This document shows, piece after piece, positions 193 to 33,700 of a stretch of DNA of 33,700 nt (the stretch's first letter is position 1; every line of letters starts with the position of its first letter). This stretch comes from Lactobacillaceae bacterium (GTDB lineage Bacteria; Bacillota; Bacilli; Lactobacillales; Lactobacillaceae). The notes under the pieces are model-generated. The model was not told the DNA's origin, did not search any database, and saw only the letters and a program-made list of their open reading frames with translations. Location of the stretch: the NCBI GenBank assembly GCA_031289615.1, contig JAITPD010000055.1, forward strand, positions 1-33,700. The letters are read 5' to 3'. A program made the position numbers and the translations under genes.

Positions 193-2646
193 TTAAACCA
201 ATGGTGACCACTTCCAGTCAGTGAACTCTTCGATATCGCGTCCTTCGTTACGAGTAACGTCGAAGTGCTTTGCCAAGATGGCATCCATGTCCTTGAAGAA
301 TTCAACAGCCTTAGCTTCATCAACTACACCGTTGTCTAACAATGCTGAAACGGCATCCTTAGCTTGGTTGAAACGATCCAAGTGTGAGTAAACACGCATG
401 TCGTAAGTTGTAGTGATGTCACCATCTTCACGGTATCCATGAACATGCAATCCAAGGTGTGCACGCTCGTAGAAGAATGATTCGATCAAGTCTTCATAAC
501 CGTGGAATCCAAAGACAACAGGTGTTCCTGACTCACCGAAGAACTTAGTAAATTCTTCGTCAGTCAATGAACGTTCTGCGTTCATAGGTCCGTTCTTCTT
601 TTGCAAACGCATTAATTCAACCACGTTCACGTAACGCATTGCTACGTCAGGGAATGCATGGTTCACGATGTTCAAAGCAGCCAAAGTTTCGATTGTTGGC
701 TCAACACCAGCAGATGCGAAGACGATGTCAGCCTTACCTTCTGGTGCAGTAGATGCCCAGTCGATAACCTTCAATCCCTTAGTAGCCAATTCTGCAGCTT
801 CTTCAGTTGAGAACCATTGTTGACGAGGTTGCTTTGATGCAACAATGTGGTTCACCTTGTGGCGTTCAGTGAAGGCACGTCCGAAGACAGCCAACAACGA
901 GTTACCATCAGCTGGCAAGTATTGACGGATAAAGTCTGACTTCTTTTCGGCCAAGTGAGTCAACATACCAGGATCTTGGTGTGTGTAACCGTTGTGGTCT
1001 TGTTGGAAGACAGTTGAAGTTGAAATCAAGTTCAATGATGGGTAATCATTACGCCATGCTTGTTCTGAGGCGTGACGCAACCACTTGAAGTGTTGAGTAA
1101 TCATTGAGTCAACTACGCGCAAGAATGATTCGTATGATGCGAAGATTCCGACACGACCAGTCAAAGTGTAGGCTTCAAGCCAACCTTCTGCTTGGTGCTC
1201 TGAAAGTTGTGAATCAATGATCCGACCTTCTGGAGCTTGGTATTGGTCAAATGGTTCCTTAACTTGTTCCATCCATTGACGGTTGGTTACGTTAAACATG
1301 TCCCATAGACGGTTTGACATAGTTTCGTCAGGTCCAAAGACACGGAATGTCGTTGGGTTCAACTTTGAAACTTCAGCAAAGTAAGCTGACAAAACGTTCA
1401 TGTCCATGTTACGGTTTCCGTCTGCCAATTCAGTACCGCGGTTAGCAGCAGTGATTTCGTTAGTGTATTGCTTCCAATCTGGCAAAGTCAAATCAGTAGC
1501 CTTTTCACCACGGGCACGTCCACCGTTTGTAACAGGGTTAGCAGCCATACGCTTGTCACCCTTTGGATGCATTTCAGCCAATTCAGGCTTCAAAGTTCCA
1601 TCAGCGTTAAACAATTCTGTTGGCTTGTATGAGTTCAACCACTCTTCAAACTTAGGCAAAGTTGCAAGCTTGTTTTGTGATAGAGGCAATGGAACTTGGT
1701 GCGCACGGAATGAACCTTCAATAGGTGCTCCAGACTCGTCATGAGTTGGTCCACCCCATCCCTTAGGCAAACGAGCGATGATAACTGGCCATGCAGCAAC
1801 AGTTCCATCTTCGTACTTTCCGTTTTCACGGGCGTCCTTTTGGATAGCTTGAATGTCTTCGATCGCTTGGTCAAGAACTTTAGCTGACAATTCGTGATAT
1901 GCAGTGTAATCATGGATGTCGTCGTTTTCAATGAAACGAGGTGAGTATCCAAGACCTTCGAAGAACTTAGTGATTTCTTCGTCTGACATACGTGAGAACA
2001 AAGTTGGGTTTGAAATCTTAAATCCGTTCAAATCCAAGATAGGCAAAACTGCACCGTCGTTCTTAGGGTTAATGAACTTAATTGAGTGCCAAGCAGTCAT
2101 TGCTGGCCCAGTTTCAACTTCACCGTCACCGATAACTGTAAATGCGATTTGGTCAGGATTGTCCAAGATTGCACCAGTTGCGTGTGACAATGAGTATCCA
2201 AGTTCTCCACCTTCGTGAAGTGATCCTGGAGTTTGCGCAGTCATGTGAGATCCAATTCCACCAGGGAATGAGAACTTCTTAAACAACTTTGCCATACCCT
2301 CAACATCTTGAGTGATTTCAGGGTAATTTTCAGTATATGAACCGTCCAAGTATGAGTTAGTAACCATGACTTGTCCACCGTGACCAGGGCCACCGATGTA
2401 GAACATGTTCAAACCATACTTGTTGATCAAGCGGTTAGCGTGAGCATACAAGAACGTTTGTCCTGAGATGGTTCCCCAGTGTCCGATTGGCTTAACCTTA
2501 ACGTCGTCTGCAACGATTGGTGTACCTGTAACTGAGAACAATGGGTTGCTCTTCAAAAAGATCATACCTGCTGAAAGGTAGTTGGTAGCACGCCACCAAG
2601 CATCAACCTTCGCAAGGTATTCCTTTGAATCAAAATCTACTGCCAT
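193..2646 (-). CDS. xpkA: D-xylulose-5-phosphate / fructose-6-phosphate phosphoketolase
   Basis: Thiamine-diphosphate enzyme that splits xylulose-5-phosphate with phosphate into acetyl phosphate and glyceraldehyde-3-phosphate, the defining step of heterolactic fermentation in the cytoplasm. The 817-aa protein has the usual family length. Visible motifs are IGGPGHGG (about 84-91), [13 protein letters not shown] (about 144-156) and the ThDP/Mg motif GDGEVETG (about 173-180) followed by [10 protein letters not shown]. The ATG has a good SD (AAAGGAG, 2658-2664 region). It is monocistronic: its own promoter lies at 2720-2748 and its own terminator at 112-147. A palindrome just upstream of the -35 resembles sites in front of the neighbouring GntR gene, suggesting regulation by it. 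Whether it also uses fructose-6-phosphate cannot be told from sequence. Confidence 0.97.
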
Positions 2647-2849: not shown

Positions 2850-3047
2850 GATATTGCATTTGAGTGCTCAGCTTCGCTAAAGATTCTTTACGTTCGGACG
2901 GGCCTACACGAATCTGTATGAAAGGCGAAATAATTCGCCAATTCCACTAACTGTTGGGCCTGGTATTAGTGTTATGGTTTATCCAGATTCGGCAGGCACT
3001 ATCATCCGACGACAGAATCGCTTCGCTGATCAACCAAAGGCAATATC
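2850..3047 (+). repeat. element A, copy 1 (divergent)
   Basis: Imperfect terminal inverted repeats run from gatattgcatttgag to ctttggttgatc-type ends (right end caaaggcaatatc). Inside are the conserved left arm gcttcgctaaagattcttta and right arm gacagaatcgcttcgctgat. The first apical hairpin is ggcgaa-ataa-ttcgcc. The second is cactaa...ttagtg, with a sequence unlike other copies but still paired. This is the most diverged full copy. The short plus-strand ORF just after it is not supported. Confidence 0.85.
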
Positions 3048-3084
3048 ACAAAACTAGCACACGGCCAAATGATCTTCCGTTTGT

Positions 3085-5867: not shown

Positions 5868-5938
5868 CAAGATGTCCCCCACCCGCATAATATCATTATT
5901 TAATTATACAATAACTTACGCGTTGTGCTAGTTGTGTA

Positions 5939-6133
5939 GTATTACACTTTGCTTGATCAGCTTCGCTAAAGATTCTTTACGTTCAGATTGGCCTTGCACG
6001 ATTCATGGCGAATGGCAAAATAATTTGCCAATTTCACGGCGCTAAAGCCCGCGTGAAAAATTTCGCCTAGATTCGGCAAGGACTGGTCATCCGACGACAG
6101 AATCGCTCCGCTGATCAACCAAAGTTCAATATT
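5939..6133 (+). repeat. element A, copy 2
   Basis: The core is at 5953-6118, with ttgatcagc at one end and gctgatcaa at the other; the inverted repeat extends outward (actttg-cttgatcagc against actttggttgatcagc). Apical hairpins are tggcaaa-ataa-tttgcca and ttcacggcgctaaagcccgcgtgaa. It fills most of the gap between the GNAT start and the MATE stop. No separate terminator is seen for the MATE gene, so the element's stems may also end transcription. Confidence 0.9.
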
Positions 6134-6156
6134 TTAATAAACACCATTGCCCAAAT

Positions 6157-7530: not shown

Positions 7531-7573
7531 CGTTATTCATTCCTTTTAATTATTTTGGTGGTGACGAGTTGTT

Positions 7574-7737
7574 TGTTCAGCTACGCTAAAGATTCTTTAC
7601 GTTTCGGATTTGCCCTGCACGATTCATGGCGAATGGCAAAATAATTTGCCAATTTCACGGCGCTAAAGCGCGCGTGAAAAGTTTCGCCTAGATTCGGCAA
7701 GGGCTGGTCATCCGACGACAGAATCGCTTCGCTGACC
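7574..7737 (+). repeat. element A, copy 3
   Basis: Core from tgttcagctacgctaaagat to cagaatcgcttcgctgacca. The middle stem gccctgc/gcaagggc and the hairpins tggcaaaataatttgcca and ttcacggcgctaaagcgcgcgtgaa are clear. Its right end lies 6 bp from element B copy 1, making a composite A-B unit between the MATE and ABC-F genes. Confidence 0.9.
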
Positions 7738-7743
7738 AGCGAA

Positions 7744-7918
7744 CACCTTGGTCATTTTAGTGAAAGCGTGATGATTTGAGATAATGATAGTAGGTGAATA
7801 AGCGAGGTAGCGGTACCAATTCGACTCATTTTGCAAAAATGTGTAGTCGAATGGGACCGTGTCGCCACTTACTATCTTTATCGAAAAGTCAGCATGCTAT
7901 GTTAAAAATGACCAATGT
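7744..7918 (-). repeat. element B, copy 1 (reverse orientation)
   Basis: Terminal inverted repeats are accttggtcatttta and taaaaatgaccaatgt. Inner arms gatagtaggtg and cacttactatc pair, as do gcggtaccaattcgact and agtcgaatgggaccgtgtcgc. The apical hairpin is CATTTT-tgc-AAAATG when read in the forward sense. Relative to A the order is the same as in the other three composites (B forward, then A reverse, read on the opposite strand). Confidence 0.85.
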
Positions 7919-16986: not shown

Positions 16987-17172
16987 AACACTTTGGTGAT
17001 TTTTCACTTGCGTGATGAATTTTAGATAATAATAGTAAGTGGCGACACGGTCCCATTCGACTTTTAATTTCGGTAAACCGAAATTTAGTCAAATTGGTGC
17101 CGCTACCTCGCTTGGTCACCTACTATCATTATCTAAAATTCACCACGCTTTCAATAAAATTACCAAAGTGTT
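16987..17172 (+). repeat. element B, copy 2
   Basis: Terminal repeats aacactttggtgatt and aattaccaaagtgtt match at 14 of 15 positions. Inner arms aatagtaagtgg/cacctactatc and ggcgacacggtcccattcga/tcaaattggtgccgc pair. The apical hairpin here is AATTTCGG-taaa-CCGAAATT, a different but perfectly paired sequence compared with other B copies. No gene is seen between this element and the DUF975 gene. Confidence 0.88.
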
Positions 17173-17181
17173 TACTTTTGC

Positions 17182-17344
17182 ACTCAGCGGAGCGATTCTG
17201 TCGTCGGATGACCAGCCCTTGCCGAATCTAGACGAACACTTTTCACGCGTGCTTTAGCGCCGTGAAATTGGCGAATTATTTCGCCATTCGGCATGAATCG
17301 TGCAGGGCAAATCCGAACGTAAAGAATCTTTAGCGAAGCTGAGT
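17182..17344 (-). repeat. element A, copy 4 (reverse orientation)
   Basis: From actcagcggagcgattctgt to ctttagcgaagctgagt, 10 bp after element B copy 2. Its first apical hairpin is ggcgaa-ataa-ttcgcc rather than the usual ggcaaa-ataa-tttgcc: a paired change in both arms. Confidence 0.9.
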
Positions 17345-17349
17345 AAAAC

Positions 17350-17375
17350 TCAAGTGAAAAATGACCAAGGTATTT
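17350..17375 (-). repeat. isolated element B end
   Basis: caagtgaaaaatgaccaagg is the inverse of the ggtcatttttcacttg left end seen in full B copies. Here it follows A copy 4, so A is bracketed by a full B on one side and an inverted B end on the other. Confidence 0.7.
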
Positions 17376-18948: not shown

Positions 18949-18977
18949 ATATTAGCAGTAAATGGCGAATGTTACAA
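18949..18977 (-). promoter_or_regulatory. promoter of dtpT
   Basis: TTGTAA (18972-18977), 17-bp spacer, TAATAT (18949-18954) on the minus strand; leader of about 50 nt. Confidence 0.6.
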
Positions 18978-19046
18978 GTTTTTTTCAAAATTAAAGGACA
19001 AGAATGCCTGTACATAGGCATTGTTTTAATAATCTTATATATTTCC

Positions 19047-19093
19047 GTCATCCGACGACAAAATCACTTCGCCGATAAACAAAGGCCAATATT
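19047..19093 (+). repeat. element A remnant (right end only)
   Basis: gtcatccgacgacaaaatcacttcgccgataaacaaaggccaatatt aligns with the right end of full A copies, including the outer caaaggcaatat extension seen in copy 1, with a few substitutions. The rest of the element is missing. Confidence 0.75.
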
Positions 19094-19181: not shown

Positions 19182-19185
19182 TTAG

Positions 19186-19257
19186 CTGGGGTAGTAGGAA
19201 TCGAACCTACGCTACATGGTACCAAAAACCACTGCCTTACCGCTTGGCTATACCCCA
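19186..19257 (-). tRNA. tRNA-Gln (anticodon TTG)
   Basis: Acceptor arms TGGGGTA and TACCCCA, D-arm AGCCAAGCGGTAAGGC, anticodon loop TTTTGGT giving TTG, and T-arm GTAGGTTCGAATCCTAC. CCA is not encoded. It is second in a two-tRNA unit, 5 bp after the CCA of tRNA-Tyr. Confidence 0.95.
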
Positions 19258-19261
19258 ATCA

Positions 19262-19347
19262 TGGTGGGGGGTAAAGGATTCGAACCTTTGAACCCGAAGG
19301 AATGGATTTACAGTCCACCGCGTTTGACCAGACTTCGCTAACCCCCC
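19262..19347 (-). tRNA. tRNA-Tyr (anticodon GTA), CCA encoded
   Basis: Acceptor GGGGGGT pairs with ACCCCCC, followed by A and an encoded CCA. The anticodon stem-loop GGACTGTAAATCC gives GTA. A long variable arm (ATTCCTTCGGGTTC region) is expected for Tyr, and the T-loop GTTCGAATC is present. Confidence 0.95.
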
Positions 19348-21584: not shown

Positions 21585-21766
21585 AAACTATTTGGTCATT
21601 TTTCACTTGCGTGGTGACTTTTCAATGAAGATAGTAAGTGGCGACACGGTCCCATTCGACTATACGTTTTTACAAAACGAGTCGAATTGGTGCCGCTACC
21701 TCGCGTAATCACCTACTATCATCATCTCAATCCACCACGCCTTTAATAAAATGACCCCGGTGTTTC
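21585..21766 (+). repeat. element B, copy 3
   Basis: Terminal repeats aaactatttggtcatttt and ataaaatgaccccggtgttt. The apical hairpin is CGTTTT-tac-AAAACG, while other copies have CATTTT/AAAATG. Inner arms gatagtaagtgg and cacctactatc are conserved. Confidence 0.88.
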
Positions 21767-21771
21767 ATCAA

Positions 21772-21966
21772 AATATTGCACTTGGATTGATCAGCGGAGC
21801 GATTCTGTCGTCGGATGACCAGTCCTTGCCGAATCGAGGCGAACCTTTTCACGAGTGCTTTAGCGCCGTGGAAATGGCAAATTATTTTGCCATTCGCCAT
21901 GACTCGTGCAGGGCAAATCCGAAACGTAAAGAATCTTTAGCGAAGCTGATCAACAAAGCACAACTT
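21772..21966 (-). repeat. element A, copy 5 (reverse orientation)
   Basis: Outer inverted repeat atattgcacttggattgatcag against ctgatcaacaaagcacaact. Core conserved, with hairpins atggcaaattattttgccat and tcacgagtgctttagcgccgtg. It ends only 6 bp after the DacA-like stop codon. Confidence 0.9.
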
Positions 21967-31290: not shown

Positions 31291-31332
31291 GATAACCATT
31301 CCCCCTATAATATTTTTTATATTTAACGTCTG

Positions 31333-31351
31333 GTGCTAGTTATACAACATC
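31333..31351 (+). repeat. 19-bp inverted repeat, left arm
   Basis: gtgctagttatacaacatc is the inverse of the 31827-31845 arm with one mismatch. The pair encloses the B-C-A composite. Confidence 0.7.
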
Positions 31352-31650
31352 TTGGTCATTTCTCACTTGCGTGGGGCATTCTGATAATGATAGTAAGTGG
31401 CGACACGGTCCCATTGACTTTACATTTTTGTAAAATGAGTCGAATTGGTGCCGCTACCTCGCTTTAAGGAGTGTGCACAAAGGCGTTCTGAGCTATCGGG
31501 ATAAGGATTGTTTCCGATTTGCTACCAAAGCGTAGCAACGTAGTGATTTGGAAAATGATCTTATAACCGAAGCTCAGCCTTTGTAAACACGATAGTCACC
31601 TACTATCATTATCTCAAACCACCACGCCTCAAATAAAATGACCAAGGTTT
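31346..31650 (+). repeat. element B, copy 4, split by element C
   Basis: Left end acatcttggtcatttctcac, right end aaataaaatgaccaaggttt. The apical hairpin is CATTTT-tgt-AAAATG. The sequence breaks after gccgctacctcgctt (about 31474) and resumes at tcacctactatcattatc (about 31596); other B copies have only about four bases there. Confidence 0.85.
31474..31596 (+). mobile_element. element C, palindromic insertion inside element B
   Basis: About 120 bp with ends gtgtgcacaaaggc and gcctttgtaaacac, followed inward by gagc/gctc. Further inside ataagga...tttcc pairs with ggaaaa...tcttat, and the tip is GCTAC-caaagc-GTAGC. It codes for nothing and is absent from the three other B copies, so it looks like a MITE-like insertion. 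No clear target duplication is seen. Confidence 0.7.
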
Positions 31651-31651
31651 T

Positions 31652-31824
31652 TATGACCAGCGAAGCGATTCTGTCGTCGGATGACCAGCCCCTGCCGAAT
31701 CTAGGCGAACTTTTTCACGCGTGCTTTAGCGCCGTGAAATTGGCAAATTATTTTGCCATTCGGCATGAATCGTGCAGGGTCATCCGAACGTAAAGAATCT
31801 TTAGCGAAGCTGATCAAACAAAGT
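31652..31824 (-). repeat. element A, copy 6 (reverse orientation)
   Basis: From tgaccagcgaagcgattctg to agcgaagctgatcaaacaaa. The middle stem here is perfect (CCCTGC with GCAGGG). Hairpins are tggcaaattattttgcca and ttcacgcgtgctttagcgccgtgaa. It directly follows element B copy 4. Confidence 0.9.
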
Positions 31825-31826
31825 AC

Positions 31827-31845
31827 GATGTTGTATAACTAGTAC
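31827..31845 (-). repeat. 19-bp inverted repeat, right arm
   Basis: gatgttgtataactagtac; pairs with 31333-31351 at 18 of 19 positions. Confidence 0.7.
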
Positions 31846-31921
31846 AACGCTATATTTAATACCCTTATCATATCAATTTTTTATGGATATTTGGTGAAGA
31901 CGTATTTTATTTTTACGTATT

Positions 31922-33447: not shown

Positions 33448-33555
33448 CTTGATATATTCCTTATCCAATAATAGTTTGTTAGAGTTAACATTTACTCAAA
33501 GTAGTTCTAATTATAGTTTAACAGAAAAGTAATTAGTGCGTTGGGCTATTTGGGG

Positions 33556-33700
33556 AATGTTGCTCTTTGATTAATCAGCTTCGCTAAAGATTCTTTACGT
33601 TCGGATGGCCCTGCACGAGTCACGTCGAATGGCAAAATAATTTGCCAATTTCACGGCGCTAAAGCACGCGTGGAAAGGTTCGCCTAGATTCGGCAAGGGC
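33556..33700 (+). repeat. element A, copy 7 (cut by the window end)
   Basis: Starts aatgttgctctttgattaat, continues with cagcttcgctaaagattctt and the two apical hairpins, and is cut in the right arm at gattcggcaagggc. Confidence 0.88.

Follow-up and report, generated by a model that had tools for sequence, protein, structure and literature searches.

High-copy repeats of bacterial genomes are usually explained as passive MITEs. The REP and BIME hairpins of RAYT transposases are high-copy and imperfect and carry conserved mismatches; REPs are 20 to 40 nt in length and without target duplications. In integrons, the substrate is the folded single strand of attC, which combines variable stems with conserved extrahelical bases. 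According to the published account, the BOX elements of Streptococcus pneumoniae (BOX-type elements in S. suis) number 125 in one genome and are taken as parasitic, and they are built of end modules and optional inner modules, with inverted ends, target duplications and a predicted stem-loop (PMC3049150). The text of that account contains neither "compensatory" nor "covari", and the legend of its Figure 2 colors pairs by compatible interactions (PMC3049150). Among MITEs, Correia, RUP, Nezha and QMITE2 are short, folded and mostly intergenic and have inverted ends, and QMITE2 is accompanied by 7 to 9 bp direct repeats (PMC10969869).

Here we analyze a repeat family in a 33.7-kb stretch of DNA (the window). 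The window corresponds to contig C42 in the assembly of a Lactobacillaceae bacterium (the source genome), which has 65 contigs totaling 2.01 Mb. The family is of a known kind, a BOX-like, MITE-type modular repeat. Its plan, T-A(D)-B(C)-T, is modular, with defined ends and optional inner modules, as is that of BOX-type elements. Judged from the published description, and not from the boxA, boxB and boxC sequences, the BOX repeats of pneumococci appear to be nearest in plan, but the modules here are 100 to 180 nt long, A and B are each a long hairpin in a fixed order, modules nest in hairpins, and one core stays paired in seven species although its stems differ among them. As in MITEs, there are terminal inverted repeats (28 elements) and target site duplications (10 of these 28, at 7 nt or more), whereas conservation is lower at the ends than in the core, and no parent insertion sequence was found among the ORFs between convergent T pairs. 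Unlike REPs, the composites here are about 200 to 520 nt and have duplications in part. Likeness to attC concerns the way of working alone, for target duplications are present here and no cassettes, integrase or attC ends were noticed. We conclude that this is a real, strongly structured, modular mobile repeat, and its nested hairpin plan and shape-first evolution look new.

Copies of the repeat in the window

A covariance model of A detected seven copies in the window (each at E ≤ 3e-41; all but copy 7 are in the alignment of the model), bearing out the seven copies and one remnant reported in the earlier note, the remnant being weak. Copy 1, of subfamily A2, is located at 2859–3061 on the plus strand (model match 2859–3039) and includes a partial right arm T' at 3025–3061. 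Copy 2 (5918–6136, plus strand), supported by the model, profiles, alignment and folding, consists of a left arm T (5918–5961), the core (5948–6124) and a partial right arm to 6136. All other copies were identified, like copy 1, by the covariance model and profiles. Next after copy 3 (7568–7745, plus strand) stands a B module (7743–7915, minus strand; profile and B core model). Copy 4 (17174–17351, minus strand) has its B module at 16993–17171 (plus strand; B core model, profile and fold), that is, behind A in the direction of A, and the B module of copy 5 (21781–21958, minus strand) is at 21592–21763 (plus strand; B core model and profile). The remnant, a right end of A at 19048–19092 on the plus strand, matches copy 1 at 84% over 45 nt and is weak with the A model (match 18953–19084, E = 0.82). 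Adjacent genes for tRNA-Gln and tRNA-Tyr (19185–19347, minus strand) are found about 90 nt beyond it.

The most complete composite of the window spans 31327–31850 on the minus strand and reads T-A-B(with C)-T in the direction of A. Profiles called one T arm (31809–31850), A, B and C, and the second arm, from 31327 on, was read by eye and not called by the T profile. Copy 6 of A (31647–31822, minus strand) is accompanied by a B module on the plus strand that is split by C, with a left part at 31351–31464 (profile; core model match 31400–31466) and a right part at 31592–31648 (profile match 31561–31648, which overlaps C). The nested C module (31465–31591, plus strand, profile) is itself a long inverted repeat, whose own profile matches both strands. 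On both flanks of the composite, at 31318–31326 and 31851–31859, is the target duplication TATATTTAA, which was read by eye and is outside the 28 elements tested statistically. Finally, a T arm and copy 7 of A (33538–33700, with A at 33566–33700, plus strand) are cut by the contig end, and contig C47 begins with an A match of equal score.

The predicted fold of A is a long imperfect stem and a three-way junction with two apical hairpins on top, for which the earlier term "cloverleaf-like" is a fair word. As described before, the first hairpin is GGCAAA/TTTGCC in copies 2, 3, 5, 6 and 7 and GGCGAA/TTCGCC in copies 1 and 4, and the second hairpin of copy 1, in keeping with its A2 membership, is different yet paired (CACTAAC..GTTAGTG). 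The outer arms, the partner module B, the nested modules C and D, the target duplications and the genome-wide number had been missed. A folds more stably than expected by chance. The predicted energy of copy 2 is −76 kcal/mol (z = −7.0 relative to dinucleotide-shuffled sequences), and copy 1 gave z = −3.3 on the plus and z = −6.9 on the minus strand; none of 200 shuffles was as good as copy 2, or as copy 1 on either strand.

Genome-wide number, placement and module order

BLAST identified at least 40 A copies in the 2.01 Mb genome, and a covariance model built on 45 copies (R1) at least 150 matches. Among the 150 matches listed, 11 touch a contig end, including the right end of the window, and five equal-score pairs at contig ends may each represent one copy seen twice; at least four further copies (L169, L170, L179 and L181) are outside these 150. 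Profile searches for the modules, conducted on a merged 408 kb comprising the 150 listed places and their flanks, returned segments of 161 A (120 near full length), 111 B, 24 C, 20 D and 107 T. The clusters marked there cover 47.8 kb or about 2.4% of the genome.

The usual order is an outer arm T, A (at times with D inside), B (at times with C inside) and T. B is present in 90 of the 151 A-bearing clusters, and full B modules stand behind A in the same orientation in 59 of 60 cases; the one other case reads "B+ T+ A+ T-". D is inside A in one orientation in all 20 clusters that have it, at two different sites that characterize subfamilies A3 and A4; together with the main form (99 copies) and A2, the form of copy 1, these are the forms of A. 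For full C, which lies inside B, 19 of 20 clusters agree in orientation, and the remaining cluster has two opposed A copies. Partial B matches occur alone on the other strand in six clusters, where the strand is uncertain because B is near-palindromic. The profiles of B, C and D have lengths of 103 to 178 positions. The T arm is outermost, weakly conserved, and often absent on one or both sides.

The elements are intergenic and without strand bias. Based on ORFs called mechanically, a gene was called on both sides in 125 of 129 clusters, of which two overlap another ORF and 123 do not. Orientation relative to co-directional flanking genes is even (54 versus 49), and 14 and 8 clusters lie between divergent and convergent genes, respectively. 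Insertion directly behind terminators was considered and dropped (45 of 280 sides compared to 27.8 in simple shuffles). Distances to flanking genes bear on the possibility that the copies are transcribed and that the RNA is selected in place, as a 3' end, an attenuator, or a processing or protein-binding site: gene 3' ends are nearer (median 48) than 5' ends (109), which is in favor of such an RNA, as is the transcription of BOX repeats (PMC3049150), whereas the even orientation to genes argues against it.

Marks of mobility and candidate deletions

T was called at both sides of 28 elements, with weak conservation, and some of the second T calls are inner ones and not the true end. Strings of 7 nt or more common to both flanks were present in 10 of these 28 elements (null 7.8%), and strings of 8 nt or more in 5 of 28 (null 2.4%); in 18 of 28 a clear target duplication is absent. 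A minority of two-armed copies bear 8 to 9 bp target duplications. A T pattern with up to three mismatches gave 55 sites and seven convergent pairs within 3 kb, five of which span about 500 nt or less. The two others, of about 2.3 kb, presumably join separate elements around ORFs that are surface-protein-like and 6-phosphogluconate-dehydrogenase-like. No transposase-like ORF is inside the seven pairs, nor was a mobilizing enzyme found among the ORFs between convergent T pairs, and an autonomous element defined by arm pairs was rejected, there being none among the seven.

Elements with both T arms and no A core (L171, L173, L175, L176 and one at C56_22217) have a different junction each time. 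Because each junction is individual, the copies without A, or without A and B, look like deletions, and a homing of A into older T..T elements was rejected. Several copies are without hairpin tops, with a different junction in each, and in L181 (C37:5377–7800 of the source genome, near 6577) the A core, which carries D, is inverted between the outer arms, as arm-to-arm strand switching would make it. These observations favor an explanation by which the elements are neutral long inverted repeats, that is, passive MITEs, in which template switching between arms during replication recopies one arm onto the other and pairing is restored without selection. An inversion of this kind is an outcome named for template switching in PMC8604942, and template switching is argued to be able to create and maintain hairpins in PMC8794818.

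Distribution beyond the source genome

A was found by BLAST in none of the 27 other species of the genus, and by model R1 (E ≤ 0.001, strict filters) in 1 of 120 genomes, namely, the source genome, and in none of the 119 other relatives. The exact A core is not present in the genome contigs of 84,980 species, a collection from which the source genome may be absent, and A was detected neither in viral contigs nor, by blastn, in plasmids and phages. At the gathering score, Rfam reported two tRNAs in the window and no element match; with six loci (A to D and the units of the sister species G022) at E ≤ 5, it reported a chance-level H19_3 match over the G022 unit (E = 0.73; 23.4 versus 46 bits). 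The earlier note had allowed for the copies to be explained by a known, named element, and no such relative emerged from Rfam or from the viral, plasmid and phage collections searched; the lack of an Rfam relative counts against a structured RNA. Among the open-access results listed for Weissella, Leuconostoc and lactic acid bacteria, no paper on such repeats appeared; the genus of the source genome may be Weissella, to judge by phosphoketolase and genome sizes. Outside the element in L181, at 1845–1974 (minus strand), there is an Rfam match resembling a ribosomal S15 leader (36.2 bits; gathering score 39.5).

By contrast, B reaches further. An 18-mer of the B core, sought with up to one mismatch in 301 family genomes, occurred 102 times in the source genome and 25 times in G022, and two other one-mismatch hits (G181 and G267) were set aside as lying in coding-like sequence. 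A B core model (R2) gave 109 matches in the source genome and 93 in G022, which is the nearest genus member by one protein (36% identity, among members having that protein). R2 also matched G005 (3), G006 (3), G007 (4), G008 (2) and G011 (13), with best E-values of 1.4e-6 to 1.2e-4, and had no match at E ≤ 1 in 21 of 28 genus genomes. Besides the source genome, six species of the genus carry the B core on other stems, which makes 7 of 28 in all. Under strict filters, the source genome alone matched among 151 family genomes, genus members among 130 of them not being itemized. Two loci call for comment. L244 (G008) matches L253 (G011), but with blocks of about 200 nt in a different order, which probably reflects an error in the G008 assembly; the match of L244 (E = 3.8) is outside the two counted for G008. 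L208 (G022) contains, at 1108–1271, a unit with a replaced inner hairpin that scored 20 bits with the A model (E = 0.0008), a possible link between A and B-like units.

The very high copy number, conserved core and intergenic placement would also be expected of a chromosomal signal that the host maintains at many sites through use and gene conversion, as with BIMEs to which architectural proteins bind. We consider this very unlikely in view of the distribution just described, with A in the source genome alone of 120 genomes and B in 7 of 28 species.

A fold common to B and the G022 unit, and a third family

Two strands, GTGG(G)CGACA..GTCC.. and ..GTGC..CTACCTCGC, are shared by the B module of the source genome and the G022 unit. 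The folds of the two are similar, with 2 nt facing 5 nt in an unequal internal loop and with a bulge of 5 to 6 nt. The stems that flank the loop strands have different sequences in B and G022 and are paired in both; in some G022 forms, GAG/CTC replaces CGG/CCG between the common strands. Most of the copies read of a third family retain GGTGGCRACGG.GTCCC and GGTGC.CCTGTCCTYGCTT. On the model alignment its GCRA/TYGC helix is paired throughout, with G-C replaced by A-U in 11 sequences. Among eight unconstrained folds of the third family, three have an 8-nt one-sided bulge, three a loop of 3 versus 12 nt and one a loop of 1 versus 10 nt, and one folds otherwise. Template switching should erase mismatched loops, yet the loop strands are common to B and G022, and an unequal loop is left in seven of the eight third-family folds, although drawn in different ways. 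That these loops are not all alike also lowers our confidence in a recognition of folded DNA.

The bulge behind CTACCTCGC (4 to 5 nt) belongs to the most variable portions of B (commonest base 55 to 84%), for example, within 17028–17133 of the window, and its neighbors are nearly invariant; it varies in G022 too. At several G022 places and at the third-family loci L233 and L250, two units in inverted order stand one at each end of an element. In the source genome, A stands in place of one of two inverted units. Directly outside several G022 units (L163, L164, L166, L168 and L190), we noted by eye a small hairpin with a stem that varies but pairs.

Covariation and conservation

Covariation was quantified with our own R-scape-like script, not R-scape, by a G-test with average-product correction, against a null in which inferred substitutions are re-dealt over a FastTree tree, and pairs were counted at E < 0.05 in a test set restricted to the structure pairs. 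It is modest in A, weak in B of the source genome, and strong in G022 and over seven species. In main-form A, 3 of 71 pairs covary, and structure pairs make up 7 of the 20 strongest column pairs (0.09 expected); 3 of 62 pairs covary in A2 (21 copies), 2 of 70 in main and A2 together, and 1 of 43 in B of the source genome. In G022, 25 of 70 pairs covary and 16 of the 20 strongest are structure pairs. The earlier claim, of pairing preserved under sequence change, holds in part for A and more so for G022; it is not upheld for A when the test set is widened to all column pairs, since no A pair then reaches E < 0.05.

Over the seven species, 11 of 22 pairs of the B core covary. The alignment was fitted to the structure, which favors its pairing measures: 96.6% of cells are paired (76.8% in shuffles), paired double changes occur in 343 cells (106 shuffled and at most 91 when slid), and the covariation score is 0.47 versus 0.14. 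Pairs with a double change number 14 compared to 11.7 in shuffles (reached by 14 of 500), and further pair types show no excess (27 compared to 30.9, reached by 500 of 500). The strong covariation in the B relatives, in G022 and over seven species alike, is in favor of a structured RNA, as is a U-G pair that 75 of 83 sequences conserve on one strand.

Paired columns are more conserved than unpaired ones in B (0.96 versus 0.87) but not in A (0.90 versus 0.92), the latter in favor of template switching and lowering our confidence in a folded-DNA reading. Conservation is higher in the A core than in the outer arms. Between orthologous copies of other species (five copy pairs), 44 of 1040 paired sites and 47 of 469 unpaired sites changed (p = 3e-5, treating as independent sites that are not, and with one of the five copy pairs poorly aligned), and in the flanks 747 of 9957 sites changed. 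Among 34 changed pairs, 7 are double-changed and still paired, 9 are changed on one side and still paired, and 18 are unpaired; 22 of the 34 come from L245/L246, whose outer arms align poorly. The lower change at paired sites suggests a constraint in place, after insertion. Constraint of this kind, seen in five copy pairs, is not explained by selection for mobility alone; it is what an RNA selected in place would show, and template switching should not slow the change of stems between orthologues.

Wobble pairs and double changes

Selection on one RNA strand should leave half-compensated pairs as G-U on that strand; the cells counted are not independent. For pairs predicted on both strands, GT versus AC cells were 158/194 in A, 16/45 in A2, 17/25 in B and 25/51 in G022, and in the direction of A the sign of A2 disagrees with that of B and G022. 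Pairs of the given strand alone gave 280/194 in A, an excess of GT that would favor an RNA, and 56/51 in G022, in a set that favors GT by construction. The both-strand counts favor no strand consistently and thus give no support for one RNA strand, which leaves two causes at the DNA level, selection on folded DNA or template switching.

In G022, double changes (274 cells) exceed wobble half changes (76) and other mismatches (53), as template switching would have it. They are not dominant in the source genome, where A has 179 double changes versus 352 wobble-type changes and 428 other mismatches, and B has 13 versus 42 and 53, which speaks against template switching there. That double changes dominate in G022 only has lowered our confidence in the folded-DNA reading and raised that in template switching, which we still regard as rather unlikely to be the whole explanation.

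The earlier note had argued for a functional RNA or a single-strand DNA structure. Single-strand DNA is the form that we tentatively prefer. An RNA is not favored over a DNA-level cause, given the lack of a consistent wobble strand, the even orientation to genes, and the marks of a mobile element, namely, duplications and nested modules. The evidence thus does not place an RNA function above the DNA readings; such a function is possible, and we judge it unlikely. Compensatory changes do not prove an RNA because template switching can make them.

Discussion

We demonstrate here the copies of the element, their order and nesting, the partial duplications, the fold, and covariation that is strong in the B relatives and modest in A. 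Our results suggest that the folded shape is important, most probably for the way in which the element spreads. Tentatively, and with slightly less than even confidence, we propose a modular, non-autonomous and selfish element of the MITE kind, of which A forms the left half and for which the folded DNA matters. Such an element would be built of outer inverted arms T and two long imperfect hairpins, A and then B, with optional D in A and C in B. It would insert between genes with 8 to 9 bp target duplications, would be mobilized by an enzyme supplied in trans, and would be met by this enzyme, or by a replication fork, as a folded single DNA strand or a cruciform. The unequal internal loops may serve as recognition marks; the shape would be kept while the stems change by drift or by recopying from one arm to the other, and the element would spread for its own sake.

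Several of our findings stand against this proposal: no enzyme was found between the convergent T pairs, 18 of the 28 elements with T at both sides are without a clear duplication, the arms are less conserved than the A core, which is the reverse of the usual MITE, covariation is modest in A and in B of the source genome, and paired columns of A are no better conserved than unpaired ones. A wider possibility, which we regard as doubtful, is that there is a genus-wide class of mobile elements identified by the folded strand and not by the ends, in which loops would be recognized, stems would be free to change provided that they pair, modules would nest, and insertion would generate 8 to 9 bp duplications. 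To our knowledge, folded-DNA recognition of the attC or REP type joined with duplication-making insertion has not been described.

The B relatives are a clear case of pairing kept over changing stems. Covariation in dispersed repeats alone is no proof of a functional RNA. These natural variants separate sequence from shape, since one core remains paired in seven species whose stems differ, and this makes RNA function, folded-DNA recognition and template switching alone open to direct test.
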